The translations under genes were made by a program, and so were the position numbers. From Aurantiacibacter sediminis (GTDB lineage: Bacteria; Pseudomonadota; Alphaproteobacteria; Sphingomonadales; Sphingomonadaceae), in assembly GCF_016019885.1 (NCBI RefSeq), contig NZ_JAEANY010000001.1, positions 124,001 to 188,000 on the forward strand: a stretch of DNA of 64,000 nucleotides. Reading direction: 5' to 3'. Positions 23,348-28,913 of this stretch are shown in pieces; position 1 is the first letter of the stretch, and the number at the start of each line of letters is the position of its first letter. Under the pieces are notes generated by a model. That model was not told where the DNA came from, made no database searches, and worked only from the letters and a program-made list of their open reading frames with translations.

Positions 23348-23872
23348 CTGTTCCGCAAGGCGGGCACACCACCGCGCTTCGACGCCAAATGGCAGGATCG
23401 GCGGCGCAGGAAACGGTCTTGGCGGCGGCTGCGCTGGCCATTGCTTATCGTGATCATAATTGCCGCAGCTTGGGCCTATGAGCGGTTTGGGTACCGTTCG
23501 GCGGAATGGGACATGGTGGATTACGATTGGATCGAATGCGGCACTGGGAGCGGAGCCGCCTGCGTCATCGATGGCGATACTCTGGTGATCGGCCACAGGC
23601 GCATTCGCCTGACAGGTTTCGACACGCCAGAACGCGACGGTGCCTGCGAAGCCGAACGGCGGCTGGCATCCGTCGCACGCTATGAGCTGACGCGCTGGCT
23701 CAATCGCGGCTCGTTTGAAATGGACGGCGGAGCAGAGCCGCCACGCGATCAATATGGCCGCGAATTGCGGAGCGCGCGACGCGCAGGGGAACAAGTGGCC
23801 GACTACATGGTGGCCCGCAATCTCGCCCGCCGCAGCGGTTTCGACCAAGATTGGTGCGCCGGTGAAGGCTAG
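23348..23872 (+). CDS. Membrane-anchored thermonuclease-like protein, probable CTG start
   Basis: The frame runs on from the ppk2 stop with no ATG. CTG 23348 has GGAGG exactly 8 nt upstream and gives 174 residues: a basic N-terminus (about residues 18-32, many Arg), one membrane helix (LLIVIIIAAAWAY) and a nuclease domain. VIDGDTLVIGHRRIRLTGFD followed by TPER and DQYGRELR matches the staphylococcal-nuclease Asp/Arg/Glu set. The next start, TTG 23441, lies inside the helix and has no ribosome site. The domain would face the periplasm. The end overlaps nhaA tail-to-tail through a shared CTAG. Confidence 0.75.
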   Translation: MFRKAGTPPRFDAKWQDRRRRKRSWRRLRWPLLIVIIIAAAWAYERFGYRSAEWDMVDYDWIECGTGSGAACVIDGDTLVIGHRRIRLTGFDTPERDGACEAERRLASVARYELTRWLNRGSFEMDGGAEPPRDQYGRELRSARRAGEQVADYMVARNLARRSGFDQDWCAGEG

Positions 23873-25080
23873 CCCGCAGCGCTGACTCGCGCGTTTTCTT
23901 CCTCATCAGCCGGTGCTTTCGGGAGCGTCGCCTTGAGGAGCAGGAAGCCTGTAATGGCCGCGATGAGCGATCCGGACAGGACTCCGATTTTAACCGCGTC
24001 AATCTGCGCCGGGTCTTCAAAGGCAAGGTTGCCGATAAACAGGCTCATGGTGAAGCCGATTGCAGCGAGCAGCGAGACGGCATGCACCTGCTTCCACCCG
24101 ACATTCTCGGGCAGAGTTGCGATGCCGGACTTCACAGCGGCCCATGCAAAGCCGACGATGCCGATCTGCTTGCCGATCAGCAGGCCGAGCGCAATGCCCA
24201 GCGGCAGCGGAGCAAGCAGCGTATCCAGGCCCACACCCGTCAACGAAACACCGGCGTTGGCAAATCCGAAAATCGGGATCACGAGAAACGCCACATAGGG
24301 GTGCAGAGCATGCTCCATCCGCTCGAGCGGGCGTGAACCGTCTTTCGCCTGCACCGGCACACACATGGCGGCGGCCACACCTGCAAGGGTCGCATGGACG
24401 CCGGACTTGAGCACGAAAACCCACAGGACGATGCCGAGAATGACGTACGGTATGCTGGAGCCTGTCTTCGCGCGGCCGAACGCAGCCAGCACAACCAGCG
24501 TTACCGCCCCTGCGAGCAGCATCGTGATGTCGGTTTCCGCGGTATAAAAGAGCGCGATAATCGTGATCGCGCCGATATCGTCGATCACCGCAATCGCCAA
24601 CAACAGGGCCTTCAGCGCGACAGGCACGCGCGGGCCGAGCAGCGAGAGGATACCCAACGCAAAGGCAATATCAGTTGCGGCGGGAATCGCCCAGCCGCTG
24701 ATGTTCTCAGGCGAGTTCCAATTCAGCGCAAGAAACACCGCAGCGGGGATCGCCATGCCGCCGACAGCAGCAGCGAGCGGAAGGCTCGCCTTGTTCCAAC
24801 TATTGAGCTGGCCGATCAGCGCTTCACGCTTCACTTCCAGACCAACGAGGAAGAAGAAGATCGCCATCAATCCATCGTTGATCCACAGCAGCAATGGCTT
24901 GTCGATCATAGCTGAGCCGATGCCCGCGACCACGGGTATTTGCAGCGCGCTGAAATAGCCCTCCGCCAAGGGCGAGTTGGCAATTATCAGAGCAAGCGCT
25001 GCAGAAGCGATCAGTACAATACCGCCGGCGCTTTCCTTCTTCAGAAAATCGGTGAGCATGGGAGCGACTTTGCTAATCAT
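23869..25080 (-). CDS. nhaA: Na+/H+ antiporter NhaA
   Basis: A 403-residue membrane antiporter with about 12 helices that uses the proton gradient to expel Na+. NDGLMAIFFFLVGLEVKREAL and WAIPAATDIAFALGILSLLG contain the transport Asp pair (DIAFALG and AIAVIDDIGAI). ALKALLLAIAVIDDIGAITI is diagnostic. The end has GFTMSLFIGNLAF. ATG 25080 has a GAAGAGACG upstream. It is transcribed alone. Confidence 0.96.
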   Translation of the reverse strand: MISKVAPMLTDFLKKESAGGIVLIASAALALIIANSPLAEGYFSALQIPVVAGIGSAMIDKPLLLWINDGLMAIFFFLVGLEVKREALIGQLNSWNKASLPLAAAVGGMAIPAAVFLALNWNSPENISGWAIPAATDIAFALGILSLLGPRVPVALKALLLAIAVIDDIGAITIIALFYTAETDITMLLAGAVTLVVLAAFGRAKTGSSIPYVILGIVLWVFVLKSGVHATLAGVAAAMCVPVQAKDGSRPLERMEHALHPYVAFLVIPIFGFANAGVSLTGVGLDTLLAPLPLGIALGLLIGKQIGIVGFAWAAVKSGIATLPENVGWKQVHAVSLLAAIGFTMSLFIGNLAFEDPAQIDAVKIGVLSGSLIAAITGFLLLKATLPKAPADEEENARVSAAG

Positions 25081-25211
25081 AGTTTCGTCTCTTCAGCGGA
25101 TCGGGGCAGGCGGTAAGAGGATTTCCAAAAAAGCGAGGGGCGGACCGGCCGCGACATTTGGGGGGGGAAGGGAAGTGGACTTGCCGCTTCCGCCCCGCCC
25201 CTCGCCGAGGC

Positions 25212-25397
25212 TTAGCCTCGAGAGGTGGCCAGCACGTGGCTGGGTGTCAGGCGGACCAGATGCTCCTTGACGCGCAGTTTGCGGCGCTTGAGAGCCATGA
25301 CTTTCAACTGATCGGGCAGCCGCCGCATGCTTTCCATGCGCAGCGCTGCGTCCAGCTTCTGATGAAGCTCGGTGAGTTTATAGAAACGGGCCGACAT
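25212..25397 (-). CDS. DUF465 (YdcH-like) protein
   Basis: A 61-residue DUF465 protein. FYKLTELHQKLDAALRMESM and LKVMALKRRKLRVKEHLVRL give the expected two-helix coiled hairpin with a basic second helix. ATG 25397 has GGGAG at a spacing of 7. It is preceded by a conserved 160-nt leader shared with the 46-residue protein at 27.8 kb. Function unknown. Confidence 0.85.
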   Translation of the reverse strand: MSARFYKLTELHQKLDAALRMESMRRLPDQLKVMALKRRKLRVKEHLVRLTPSHVLATSRG

Positions 25398-25558
25398 CCA
25401 AAATCTCCCAAAACACGGGTTGAAGATGATCGGTCAGCTTTTGCTGTGTTTTGTGGGGAGAAGCGTCCGGCTCTCCGTTCAAACACGCATCGGCTGTCCG
25501 ATGCGGTCCGACATCACAAGCGCAAATGAGACGCTTGCCAGAGGGGCCCGGTCCGCAT
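25398..25558 (-). ncRNA. Conserved structured 5-prime leader, copy 1
   Basis: This leader of the DUF465 gene resembles 27957-28117 over most of its length. Shared blocks include ATGCGGACCGGGCCCCTCTGG, GATGTCGGACCGCATCGGAC and a later CTGxCCGATC...CAACCC. It holds an 8-bp hairpin CGCATCGG-ACAG-CCGATGCG (25486-25505). A competing long pairing joins ATGCGGaCCG (25558-25549) to CGGaCCGCAT (25510-25501). A 12-codon frame MSDRIGQPMRV (25479-25514) lies across the hairpin. A TATACAT -10-like sequence precedes it. It looks like a regulatory RNA element; the ligand or trigger is unknown. Confidence 0.55.
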
Positions 25559-25696
25559 TCATGTAAATGTATAACATCGGATTTGGTTTCAAGCAGAAGC
25601 GATTTTTTGCATCACCTCCCGTTTTCAATGGGCCTTTCCTATCAGTGCCGCGCCGCCTAGGCTTACGCAAAACATCTTCTCTCGGAAGGGGATATC

Positions 25697-26155
25697 ATGG
25701 ACGAAGCTTCACAACCGCAAACGGCCAGCGCGCCGCGAGACAATTCGCTCAGCATGCAGCGGCCGGTGATCATTTCGATCCTGTATCTTGCGAATTTCGT
25801 GCTGGGCGTTTCCGTCTTCATCGGCGTAATCCTCGCCTATGTCTGGCGCGGGGAAGAGCGGACGAGCCAGTGGGAGCAGACCCATTTCACCTATCTCATC
25901 CGCACTTTCTGGATTGGACTGGCGATCTCACTTGTTTTCGCGCTTGGGTGGTTTGGCCTGATTTTCGGCACGATGGCTACCTTCGATGCAGGACCGAGCA
26001 CTTCGGGCCCTCCCGGTGGTTTCTTCGTCATCATGTTCGGCGGCATGCTGGTTTTCGTCCTGTGCGCTGCATGGTTCGCCATCCGCAGCATTCTCTCACT
26101 GGTTAAGGCAGGCGAGCGCCGCCCGATGCCCAACCCCAAGGCCCTGTTGTTCTGA
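25697..26155 (+). CDS. DUF4870-like membrane protein
   Basis: A 152-residue protein with three to four membrane helices: about 24-47, 70-95 and 112-135. The sequence VWRGEERTSQWEQTHFTYLIRTFWIGL is similar to the DUF4870 pattern seen across proteobacteria. AAGGGG lies about 5 nt upstream of ATG 25697. Its stop overlaps the start of the following lipoprotein (TGATG), so they are translated together. Function unknown. Confidence 0.78.
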   Translation: MDEASQPQTASAPRDNSLSMQRPVIISILYLANFVLGVSVFIGVILAYVWRGEERTSQWEQTHFTYLIRTFWIGLAISLVFALGWFGLIFGTMATFDAGPSTSGPPGGFFVIMFGGMLVFVLCAAWFAIRSILSLVKAGERRPMPNPKALLF

Positions 26156-26790
26156 TGCGCACCTATGCACTCCTCCTCGCCCCCGCCGCGCTTGCGCTAA
26201 GCAGCTGTGCGAGCACTTCCGATGCCCCCGCCCTTCCCGCTTCGCAGGAGGCGTTCTGGGATGCGCTCTCCAGCCATTGTGGGAATGCCTATGCGGGCGA
26301 GCTCACCAGCTCGGACGAGCGCGATGCCGACTGGCAAGGCAAGATCATGATCGCGCATTGGACCGAGTGTTCCGACACGCGCATCGCCATTGCCTTCCAT
26401 GTGGAGGACGATACCTATCCCGGCGGCTGGAACCGCAGCCGCACCTGGCTCGTCACCCGTACTGAGGATGGTCTGCGTCTCAAGCACGACCACCGGCATG
26501 AGGACGGCAGCGAGGATGTGCTGACCCAATATGGCGGCGACACGCTGTCCACCGGCACGGCGCGGGTGCAGGACTTCCCGGTGGATGCCTACTCCATCGC
26601 CCTGTTCGAGCGCGAAGGCCTCACCGCCTCGCTCACCAATGTCTGGCGGATGGAGGTGGATGATGTCGACGCGCCCGGCGCCCGCTTCACTTACCAGCTC
26701 ACCCGCCGCAACGATCCCACCCGCCTGTTCCGCGTGGAGTTCGATGCGAGCGACCCGATAGAGCCGCCCCCGCCAGCCTGGGGCTGGTAG
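26155..26790 (+). CDS. Lipoprotein of unknown function
   Basis: A 211-residue protein with lipobox SSC (Cys18) after a hydrophobic signal. The mature part contains FWDALSSHCGNAYAGELTSS, MIAHWTECSDTRIAIAFHVE and WLVTRTEDGLRLKHDHRHED, a beta-rich pattern with repeated His. I recognise no named family, but this type recurs in sphingomonads. It is translationally coupled to the upstream DUF4870-like gene by one shared base and followed 6 bp later by a membrane-protein gene. Confidence 0.75.
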   Translation: MRTYALLLAPAALALSSCASTSDAPALPASQEAFWDALSSHCGNAYAGELTSSDERDADWQGKIMIAHWTECSDTRIAIAFHVEDDTYPGGWNRSRTWLVTRTEDGLRLKHDHRHEDGSEDVLTQYGGDTLSTGTARVQDFPVDAYSIALFEREGLTASLTNVWRMEVDDVDAPGARFTYQLTRRNDPTRLFRVEFDASDPIEPPPPAWGW

Positions 26791-26796
26791 GCCGCC

Positions 26797-27183
26797 ATGC
26801 GGCTCGCCGCGCCGGTCCTCGCCTATTGGGCGGTGACTTTCACGCTGGGCTTCGTGCTCGGCACAATGCGCGTGCTCTGGGGCGCAGAGGCGCTGGGGGA
26901 GACCGCCTTCGTGGCCATCGAGATTCCCATCATGCTCGGCGCCAGCTGGCTTGCGGCGCGCTGGCTGCTGCGGCGCTTCGCTATTGCCACTGCGCGCGAG
27001 GCGCTTGTCATGGGCGGTGCGGCATTCGCGCTGTTGATGGCGGCCGAACTGGTGCTGGCCAGCGTGATCGGCGAAGGCGCGCGCGGCTGGCTTGCCTCGC
27101 TCACCCGGGCACCCGGCCTCTATGGCTTTCTCGGCCAGATCGGTTTCGCGCTGATGCCGCGGCTCGCCATCGGGCGGCGCTGA
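26797..27183 (+). CDS. Four-helix membrane protein of unknown function
   Basis: A 128-residue hydrophobic protein. Likely helices are LAYWAVTFTLGFVLGTMRVL, TAFVAIEIPIMLGASWLAAR, a third around ALVMGGAAFALLMAAELVLA and a short fourth near LYGFLGQIGFALM. No family recognised. It sits 6 bp after the lipoprotein gene and is the third gene of the plus-strand operon beginning at 25697. The operon ends before the minus-strand accessory genes. Confidence 0.7.
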   Translation: MRLAAPVLAYWAVTFTLGFVLGTMRVLWGAEALGETAFVAIEIPIMLGASWLAARWLLRRFAIATAREALVMGGAAFALLMAAELVLASVIGEGARGWLASLTRAPGLYGFLGQIGFALMPRLAIGRR

Positions 27184-27247
27184 TGTGGGCGCCCCTGATA
27201 TGAGCACAAGAGTGGAACACTCCCTGAAGGTGTAAGACACGCGCTCC

Positions 27248-27784
27248 TCAGCCATAATGCACCCCCGGCCTGTCGCATTGGGCGAGCAATTGCAGCATCG
27301 CATTATCGTCATTCTTGCGCAGAATTCTGCGATATTTCCCGCGCCGCATCACCACCTGCACCAGCCCTGTGTGGAAGCGATAGGCGGCCGAGAGACCGGT
27401 GGACTTTGCCGAGGCGCGATTGATACGGCTCACCCGCCTGCCCAGCGCCACATCCCAGGCATTGGCGAACCCCGCCGCACCTGCCCGCCGCCGCAAGCGA
27501 TAGGCGCTGGTCACATCCATCCCGACACACCGCGCGGCCTCCGCCACGCAGAGCGTCTGCGCAAGATAACCGATAAACGCACCCTGCCGCTCAGGCGTCC
27601 ACCCGTCCTTGCGTGCGCGCACGGGAACGGGGTGGAACGCCGGAATGCGGCGGCGCGGCTTGGGATGACCGGCTTGGGGATGGCGAGATGGTGTGGCGCT
27701 GCTCATGCGCCGGAGGGTGAGAGCGGGTGCGGGCTGTAGGAAAGCGCAAAAGGGGCCGCCCAAGGAAAGAGGCGAGGCAGCCAT
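27248..27784 (-). CDS. Sphingomonad-type helix-turn-helix protein of unknown function
   Basis: A protein of 178 residues from ATG 27784, which has GAGG 6 nt upstream; ATG 27706 would give 152. After a basic Pro-rich N-terminus comes DGWTPERQGAFIGYLAQTLC, then VAEAARCVGMDVTSAYRLRR, a clear helix-turn-helix. RAGAAGFANAWDVAL follows. I recall many sphingomonad proteins with this WTPERQ-AAxxVGM-AYRLRRR pattern, none with known function; phage-terminase-small-subunit-like DNA binding is one possibility. It lies 31 bp after the 46-residue basic protein. Confidence 0.7.
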   Translation of the reverse strand: MAASPLSLGGPFCAFLQPAPALTLRRMSSATPSRHPQAGHPKPRRRIPAFHPVPVRARKDGWTPERQGAFIGYLAQTLCVAEAARCVGMDVTSAYRLRRRAGAAGFANAWDVALGRRVSRINRASAKSTGLSAAYRFHTGLVQVVMRRGKYRRILRKNDDNAMLQLLAQCDRPGVHYG

Positions 27785-27815
27785 AAGCTCCCTCGCCTCT
27801 CCTAATTGGCGCGGG

Positions 27816-27956
27816 TCATCCGCGCAGCAGCCCGGGCGCAAACGCCCTGGGCATGAGCCTGCCAAACAGGCTCTTGGCGCGCGGCCGGCGGCGTCCGCGC
27901 ATTTTCGCCTTCAGCACCGAGGGTGCACATGCGAGGGTTTTGAAACGGGCCTTCAT
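27816..27956 (-). CDS. Small basic protein (46 aa) behind the conserved leader
   Basis: A 46-residue, strongly basic protein, MKARFKTLACAPSVLKAKMR then GRRRPRAKSLFGRLMPRAFA. ATG 27956 has AAGGAG at a spacing of 7, a very good ribosome site. The first codons (M-x-A-R-F) and the whole upstream leader match those of the DUF465 gene at 25.2-25.4 kb, although the bodies differ. It may be an RNA- or DNA-binding peptide. No family recognised. Confidence 0.6.
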   Translation of the reverse strand: MKARFKTLACAPSVLKAKMRGRRRPRAKSLFGRLMPRAFAPGLLRG

Positions 27957-28117
27957 CTTCAGTCTCCTTGATTGGAGGGTTGGAGAGATCGGCCAGCCGC
28001 TGCTCGTTTCGGTGTTTTCCGGGAGGCTTGGGCCACCGTCAAACACGCACCGGCTGTCCGATGCGGTCCGACATCACGAGAGGCTTTCGCCGCCCGCCAG
28101 AGGGGCCCGGTCCGCAT
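27957..28117 (-). ncRNA. Conserved structured 5-prime leader, copy 2
   Basis: Second copy of the leader at 25398-25558, upstream of the 46-residue basic protein. The hairpin is CGCATCGG-ACAG-CCGGTGCG (28065-28046). One stem base differs from copy 1, changing an A-U pair to a G-U pair, so pairing is kept. The ATGCGGaCCG/CGGaCCGCAT long-range pair is identical. The overlapping short frame reads MSDRIGQPVRV (28039-28074). The start side carries CATTGTATC where copy 1 has TATACAT. Confidence 0.55.
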
Positions 28118-28184
28118 TGATACAATGTTTCATTGGCGGGGTGGTTCCCGGAGGGAGGGCGATTTTTGGTGGTAGCTGAGAAAG

Positions 28185-28303
28185 GCCCACCCCTAGCCCC
28201 TCCCGCAGGCGGGAGGGGAACATGTCGCGCGCAATCCAACCCTCCCGCTTGCGGGAGGGTCGCGAGACTTACCAGCTTGCTGGTTAGTCGCAGCGGGGTG
28301 GGC
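28185..28303. repeat. Palindromic intergenic repeat, copy B (complete)
   Basis: A 119-bp element with perfect 9-bp terminal inverted repeats GCCCACCCC (28185-28193) and GGGGTGGGC (28295-28303). Inside are two CCCTCCCGC/GCGGGAGGG-type hairpins and the variable hairpin ACCAGC-TT-GCTGGT framed by GACT/AGTC. It ends 30 bp before the DUF559 start. It is the best preserved copy in the window and defines the family. Confidence 0.85.
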
Positions 28304-28333
28304 AAACCCAAACGTTTAAGGCAAACCCACCTC

Positions 28334-28696
28334 ATGCCCGAGTGGAACCCCCGAAACACCAACCGCGCCCGCACCCTGCGCAACGCCGCTCCACCGGCAG
28401 AACGCACCCTCTGGCAGCACCTCTCCCGCAAACAGCTCGGCGTAAAGTTCAGCCGCCAAATGCCCGTCGGCCCCTATTTCGCCGATTTCCTGTGCCGCGA
28501 TCTCAAACTGGTCGTCGAATGCGATGGCGAGAGCCACGATCTGCGCCCCGATCACGACGCGCGGCGCGATGCTTTCATGCAGGCCGAAGGCTACACCGTA
28601 CTCCGCTTTGCGAACGAGGATGTGCGGCACAACACCGAAGGCGTGCTCCACATGATCCGCGAAGAAGTCGAACGCCTAAAGCCAAAGCCCAAATAA
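28334..28696 (+). CDS. DUF559 endonuclease-like protein
   Basis: A 120-residue protein of the DUF559 family, related to VSR and other PD-(D/E)xK nucleases. The N-terminus ARTLRNAAPPAERTLWQHLS and the core FSRQMPVGPYFADFLCRDLK then LVVECDGESHD are typical. Candidate catalytic residues are Asp51, Glu62 and Asp64. EGYTVLRFANEDVRHN follows. It is immediately preceded by repeat B and followed, 2 bp after its stop, by repeat C. The intact frame and tight bracketing suggest the gene travels with or depends on these repeats. Confidence 0.85.
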   Translation: MPEWNPRNTNRARTLRNAAPPAERTLWQHLSRKQLGVKFSRQMPVGPYFADFLCRDLKLVVECDGESHDLRPDHDARRDAFMQAEGYTVLRFANEDVRHNTEGVLHMIREEVERLKPKPK

Positions 28697-28763: not shown

Positions 28764-28800
28764 AATTCCGAGCACCGATCGCCAGACAACACCTCCCCAA

Positions 28801-28864
28801 CCCTCCCGCCTGCGGGAGGGTCGCGAGACTTATCAGCTTGCTGATTAGTCGCAGCGGGGCGGGC
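28801..28864. repeat. Palindromic intergenic repeat, copy D (half element)
   Basis: Same architecture as copy C: CCCTCCCGC/GCGGGAGGG, TCGCGAGACTT, variable hairpin ATCAGC-TT-GCTGAT, AGTCGCAGCGGGGCGGGC. Compared with copies B and C the stem changes in both arms together. Confidence 0.85.
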
Positions 28865-28913
28865 AAAATCCCCCCGCCGCTTGCCAGAGAAGAGTGGGGC
28901 CTCCCGGCCCCAT

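Follow-up and report, generated by a model that had tools for sequence, protein, structure and literature searches.

In a 64,000-nucleotide stretch of the Aurantiacibacter sediminis genome (contig NZ_JAEANY010000001.1, positions 124,001 to 188,000; hereafter the window, with coordinates counted from its first letter), the minus strand carries two similar leaders in front of two different small open reading frames (ORFs). Copy 1 lies upstream of a protein-coding gene for a DUF465 protein, which is followed by nhaA, and copy 2 precedes only a 46-aa basic ORF (Table 1). A covariance-model search of the window matched both leaders to the terC RNA family of Rfam (RF03067) above its gathering cut-off of 39.9 bits, with E-values of 4e-09 for copy 1 and 1.3e-07 for copy 2. 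Both align to the entire model (positions 1-59 of 59) with no broken pairs marked, and both contain P1 and P2 together with the conserved internal-loop strands of RF03067. Because one Rfam covariance model fits both copies, their likeness is not a matter of chance. An earlier reading of the DNA, made without database searches (the sequence-only reading), had described long blocks common to the two leaders and had taken them for an undescribed cis-regulatory RNA. The blocks were recovered as stretches of 42 nt (25479-25520 and 28039-28080; 95% identity), 31 nt (25532-25562 and 28091-28121; 90% identity) and 35 nt, the last spanning the Shine-Dalgarno (SD) sequence and start codon (25374-25408 and 27933-27967; 71% identity), all in a single register with an offset of 2559-2560. 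An undescribed RNA as the identity of the leaders is ruled out by the RF03067 matches above gathering; both belong to terC RNA, an orphan family of riboswitch-like character that was reportedly among the 224 candidate RNAs of a 2017 survey.

Table 1. Features of the two terC RNA leaders and of the genes behind them (window coordinates).
Feature	Coordinates	Strand	Basis and remarks
terC RNA core, copy 1	25499..25559	-	RF03067, 65.3 bits
terC RNA core, copy 2	28059..28118	-	RF03067, 58.6 bits
P1 5' strand, copy 1	25549..25557	-	pairs with 25510-25502; A-A mismatch inside
P1 3' strand, copy 1	25502..25510	-	sequence; overlaps 5' arm of hairpin A
P1 5' strand, copy 2	28108..28116	-	sequence; pairs with 28070-28062
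Hairpin A, copy 1	25486..25505 (read 25505-25486)	-	CGCATCGG-ACAG-CCGATGCG; beyond Rfam model
Hairpin A, copy 2	28046..28065 (read 28065-28046)	-	CGCATCGG-ACAG-CCGGTGCG
Element C, copy 1	25429..25439	-	P3 3' strand with 25502-25492; one A-A mismatch and an unpaired end
Element C, copy 2	27988..27998	-	P3 with 28062-28052; one A-G mismatch; sequence
Ribosome-binding site GGGAG, copy 1	25405..25409	-	sequence, by eye
Promoter-like CTTGAAA / CATTTA, 17-nt spacer, copy 1	25564..25593	-	by eye; directly upstream of P1
DUF465 small protein, 61 aa	25212..25397	-	PF04325, 31.6 bits (cut-off 25); first gene after copy 1
NhaA Na+/H+ antiporter	23869..25080	-	PF06965, 480.4 bits; second gene after copy 1
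46-aa basic ORF behind copy 2	27816..27956	-	no Pfam match

The pairing of ATGCGGaCCG with CGGaCCGCAT, put forward as a competitor of an 8-bp hairpin, is present in both copies but is not new, being the basal stem P1 of the family and already part of the Rfam model. The hairpin itself (hairpin A) is likewise found in both copies, and the single substitution between them changes an A-U pair into G-U, so that pairing is kept. The start of hairpin A coincides with the last six, unpaired positions of RF03067, and its remainder extends past the model. The stretch that runs from its 5' arm to the end of its loop shows complementarity to a site (element C) located upstream of the ribosome-binding site, some 30 nt ahead of the start codon; this long-range pairing is here called P3. 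Judged by sequence comparison, hairpin A and the predicted P3 are architecture beyond the RF03067 model. A further TGTTT/AAACA pair, said to be kept, does occur in both copies, where it sits within a longer helix in the folds in which P1 is forced, but it is not found in every relative (by eye, it is absent from the leaders L010 and L013).

For comparison, 256 pattern matches were reduced to 250 unique terC RNA elements. A significant hairpin (p<=0.02) starting no more than 11 nt past the core was detected in 64 of 247 elements, with 4.9 expected, and by type in 49 of the 73 that share the window's ACCGCATCG sequence versus 15 of the 174 others. All six pairs of hairpin A are kept in 70 of 75 elements of the CCGCATC type (shuffled mean 1.67, maximum 6 in 200), and the hairpin of the sequence-only reading, which extends beyond the Rfam model, is to this extent conserved; the sixth pair, in the 72 elements with at least five pairs, is G-C in 54, A-U in 10, G-U in 7 and unpaired in 1. 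The P1 duplex is also stronger with its own partner (-11.9) than with permuted partners (-9.2, sd 0.27) in 97 elements of other sequence types. Within the genus, no covariation was found in P1 or hairpin A, where the sequences are nearly invariant: in an alignment of 25 close leaders, seven of the eight P1 pairs do not vary, and hairpin A has 98.5% of its cells paired and no double changes. In the same alignment P3 has 89.5% of its cells paired and two pairs doubly changed, and its covariation within the genus is weak (23/500 on cells paired). The case for P3 therefore rests on comparison beyond the genus. In 47 distinct segments of the window's type, the P3 duplex came to -21.75 kcal/mol with its own partner versus -15.53 (sd 0.46) when permuted, and none of 2000 permutations was as low. 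Since hairpin A is nearly palindromic, the test was repeated without the 3' arm, giving -11.72 versus -8.53 (sd 0.35; 0 of 5000 permutations) for 30 segments, 17 of which had an ungapped pairing of at least 7 of 11 positions (null mean 6.4, maximum 12). Repeats of the same segment were dropped from the permutation tests of P3 and from those of the P1 3' strand against the SD of other-type elements; the P3, anti-SD and SD-openness tests covered elements with an assigned gene and a start-codon distance within set limits.

The sequence-only reading suggested that more copies might lie elsewhere in the genome, and four terC RNAs are present there. Two are those of the window, a third precedes an alpha-carbonic anhydrase gene with TerC next in line, and the fourth precedes an iota-type carbonic anhydrase (CA) gene. 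RF03067 was detected in 35 of 40 genomes of the genus, which hold 65 terC RNAs; in a sample of 385 genomes taken from across the class, 52 had a match. In a sample of 61 relatives, all 32 genomes with a match belong to the window's genus, and the 24 sampled from the rest of the order had none. Scanning named genomes with a pattern gave at least 119 stretches, mostly in Alphaproteobacteria, with some in Pseudomonas and one in an Arenimonas metagenome-assembled genome. Head-to-head pairs of terC RNAs, on opposite strands and about 100-150 bp apart, were seen at G099:C2:1489503-1489712, G187:C157:2785-3024 and G188:C9:125403-125616, and the elements L044 and L053 have TerC on one side and a gene of the DUF4112 cluster on the other.

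In the 40 genus genomes, a gene for NhaA, a strong TerC match or a carbonic anhydrase lies within 4.5 kb downstream on the same strand for 58 of the 65 terC RNAs, where the chance of such a gene is about 0.3% per RNA, a rough figure that assumes 3-Mb genomes. Counted from the side of the genes, a terC RNA stands upstream of 8 of the 9 iota-CA, 8 of the 12 alpha-CA, 10 of the 54 beta-CA and 25 of the 65 NhaA genes of the genus, and of 19 of the 29 strongest TerC rows (at least 165 bits; rows at 69.4 bits or below were left out). Two genomes show the order NhaA, TerC, alpha-CA; three, among them that of the window, show alpha-CA, TerC. Among the seven remaining RNAs are two before Na/Ca exchangers (L201, L202), one each before a zinc ribbon (L181, by cluster), a universal-stress protein (L180) and a DUF465 gene (L032, by cluster), one with no conserved gene behind it (L018), and copy 2. 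A second NhaA paralogue (G000:C9:206082-207203) has no upstream terC RNA.

Across the 250 elements, whose first genes were clustered by BLAST with representatives checked, the TerC/DUF475 cluster is first in 117 and DUF465 in 42, the latter followed by NhaA in 22 cases and by TerC in 9. Smaller groups are iota-CA (10), DUF4112 (10), beta-CA (9), YegS-like lipid kinase (7), zinc ribbon (7), TerB (6), alpha-CA (5), an unnamed 100-aa family (5), Na/Ca exchanger (3), Bax-inhibitor-1 (2; the representative matches the YccA model weakly, at 31.8 bits), Tim44 (2) and NhaA (1), with other genes or none in 24. In Tateyamaria (L108) the RNA precedes ORFs that resemble an Mrp Na+/H+ antiporter operon, subunits E and D matching below curated cut-offs. 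By eye, the N-termini of the three carbonic-anhydrase families resemble export signals.

Taken together, the TerC, NhaA, Mrp, Na/Ca exchange and carbonic anhydrase genes behind the RNA suggest a role in pH and cation homeostasis. The core would sense a signal that stabilises one of the alternative states and would so set translation of the gene behind it. From the gene content, the signal would be alkaline pH or an ion that follows pH, and the response would be pH and cation homeostasis through NhaA, the Mrp-like operon, TerC-family proteins, carbonic anhydrases and DUF465. As for the states themselves, P1 and hairpin A exclude each other because bases are common to both, the 3' strand of P1 being shared with hairpin A; P1 and P3 overlap by about two bases. 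A leader would hold either P1, which is compatible with P3, or hairpin A, and never both, and the earlier suggestion of a cis-regulatory type of RNA with mutually exclusive helices is supported to this extent. On balance, it seems probable, by a small measure, that the terC leader is a switch for alkaline-pH or cation stress with this P1/hairpin A/P3 architecture. A broader proposal, which we regard as tentative, is that terC RNA would sense alkaline pH, or an ion of the carbonate/sodium system that follows pH, and would govern a pH-homeostasis regulon across Alphaproteobacteria. The Na+/H+ antiporters, TerC and three unrelated families of carbonic anhydrase would have been recruited to this regulon separately, and in leaders of the Sphingomonadales type the RNA would act through P1, hairpin A and P3.

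Base-induced genes of E. coli offer a parallel: alx (a terC homologue) and yccA (BI-1 family) are given in PMC1626474 as core base-up genes with and without oxygen, chaA is up at high pH, and nhaA and ydcH, the latter annotated DUF465, are base-up with aeration. Several observations nevertheless weigh against the proposal of a pH or cation switch. In that same source nhaA and ydcH become acid-up without oxygen, and in the parts of PMC1626474 on which this comparison draws no carbonic anhydrase is named among the pH genes; the comparison as a whole is circumstantial, its five matches having been picked after the fact from long lists. Genus counts are not independent, because the loci are orthologous between genomes, although the regulon comprises several separate kinds of locus despite this orthology. 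Iota-CA matches score 72-132 bits (47 for the fragment L004) under a model cut-off of 350, and the name is therefore provisional. P3 gave no signal in the other sequence types (284 of 2000 permutations). Minimum-free-energy folds of nine leaders are also divided, with P1 and P3 together in L028, L163 and L033, hairpin A in L001, L014 and L023, and P3 without P1 in L002, L010 and L031; in the window, the fold with P1 forced lies above the best fold by 5 kcal/mol for copy 1 and 2.1 for copy 2. Over 186 folded leaders, P1 had no general effect on the openness of the SD (0.394 forced versus 0.411 forbidden, p=0.33). In favour, the SD became more open with P1 in 16 and less open in 9 of 40 DUF465 leaders (p=0.084), and more open in 6 and less in 1 of 10 iota-CA leaders (p=0.037); the opposite lean was seen in beta-CA leaders (2 up and 7 down of 9, p=0.098) and DUF4112 leaders (1 up and 4 down of 9, p=0.055). 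A single ON direction for the whole family is unsupported, as the leaders of different genes in this set lean opposite ways, and the assignment of P1 with P3 as the ON state of copy 1 is weakly supported.

A metal signal stays the main rival because the alx and mntP leaders are described as responding to both Mn2+ and alkaline pH (PMC9603457). If so, terC RNA would be a sensor of Mn2+ or another divalent metal and the alphaproteobacterial counterpart of yybP-ykoY, with carbonic anhydrases joining the regulon because TerC proteins load exported metalloenzymes. This would fit the rank of TerC/DUF475 as commonest first gene, the operons that alpha-CA and beta-CA form with TerC, the metalation of exported enzymes by TerC proteins reported in PMC10550928, and the occurrence of yybP-ykoY (RF00080) in only 4 of the 40 genus genomes. 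The terC and yybP-ykoY RNAs, the latter including the E. coli alx leader, are alike in gene content through TerC-family genes and the link to alkaline pH, and yybP-ykoY RNAs as such are recorded as responding to Mn2+ and to alkaline pH (PMC9603457 for both); they are nonetheless different families, and RF00080 has no match in the window or its genome. NhaA, the Mrp-like operon and a carbonic-anhydrase family named metal-independent are misfits for a signal of metal alone, and we consider this explanation unlikely. The view that terC RNA is a riboswitch for a monovalent cation, Na+ or Li+, appears more doubtful still. It draws on DUF465-NhaA as the commonest genus locus (25 NhaA genes behind the RNA), on the Mrp-like operon of L108, and on the Li+ (nhaA-I, nhaA-II) and Na+ (DUF1646) riboswitches, which PMC9646797 describes as controlling nhaA elsewhere and which, like copy 1, are structured leaders ahead of nhaA. 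The window leaders match none of these three models, however, either at gathering in the window or at E<=1 in 25200-28400, and carbonic anhydrases, TerB, DUF4112 and lipid-kinase genes are misfits for such a switch.

Other routes of control were considered at the level of the leader. In some elements (L115, L056 and L243 among them) the P1 3' strand runs on into an anti-SD sequence, and L069 and L043 also agree well with such a role. A general anti-SD role of this strand was rejected because the excess over permutation is small: among 97 distinct other-type elements, 27 reach -9 kcal or lower versus 17.6 expected (15 of 2000 permutations), with 32 versus 25.8 at -8 kcal (135 of 2000) and 11 versus 6.8 at -11 kcal (124 of 2000), and the corresponding values are 246 of 2000 for all 177 elements and 237 of 2000 for the window's type. 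An attenuator of the intrinsic-terminator kind was likewise discarded, as a G+C stem with a T run is absent from the minus strand of the leader and the four sites found all lie on the plus strand. The loop between hairpin A and element C, checked for C-richness of the Rho type, has a mild skew (40% C and 23% G versus 32% and 32%) and falls below 5% of control windows in 14 of 39 leaders. Upstream, CTTG, TTGA or TTGC occurs 36-52 nt before the core in 193 of 250 elements, compared with 29 of 250 for a control stretch, and a promoter at this position would begin transcription near P1; a scan of the leader region with the sigma-70 consensus, which is that of E. coli, found no promoter. Within the coding sequence, GGCCCG at codons 2-4 is kept in 25 of 25 aligned leaders (25395-25386 and 27956-27947 on the minus strand of the window). 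It is likewise present before the unrelated 46-aa ORF of copy 2. CGGGCC in the core is a potential pairing partner, and the best folds of L001, L002, L014 and L031 contain this pairing.

Copy 2 looks like a duplicated leader, start codon included, placed before an unrelated orphan ORF, since at the DNA level its homology to DUF465 leaders continues past the start codon and is lost about 13 nt into the 46-aa ORF. A search of 41 genomes for homologues of this ORF returned its own genome and one weak match (E 0.0014, 33 aa, with an in-frame TGA), and at the depth of those 41 genomes, a large protein database not having been searched, it was rejected as a conserved gene. We lean slightly towards the view that copy 2 and its ORF are a relic, a duplicated leader that would no longer serve a real gene; L018, in another genome, is also a terC RNA without a conserved gene behind it. 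Against decay stand the core, hairpin A, element C (with one mismatch), SD and start codon of copy 2, all of which are intact. Near the leaders, a 152-aa ORF on the plus strand (25697-26155), divergent from copy 1, has no Pfam match, and a DUF559 endonuclease-like ORF (120.5 bits) occupies 28133-28696 on the plus strand. Two 71-nt repeats that are 94% alike and form a G+C-rich hairpin (28236-28306 and 28797-28867) lie within and just past the latter.

The window copies resemble RF03067 throughout its model and differ in that they precede DUF465-nhaA and an orphan ORF rather than terC and carry hairpin A and P3 outside the model. Our literature searches found no paper on the ligand or function of terC RNA; the first description of the family lay outside them, and an earlier notice of the helices or of the gene list is possible. 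The matches listed for 'terC RNA' concern telomerase or TERC/TERT biology, and terC is absent from the main text of a review of former orphan riboswitches (PMC7266159), as far as the portion used here extends. With antiporters, TerC proteins and three families of carbonic anhydrase in the regulon, the candidate signals come down to a short list. If pH or bicarbonate is indeed the signal, an RNA switch with such an input would be unusual, and DUF465, DUF4112 and TerC-family proteins would be tied to pH homeostasis in a large bacterial class.

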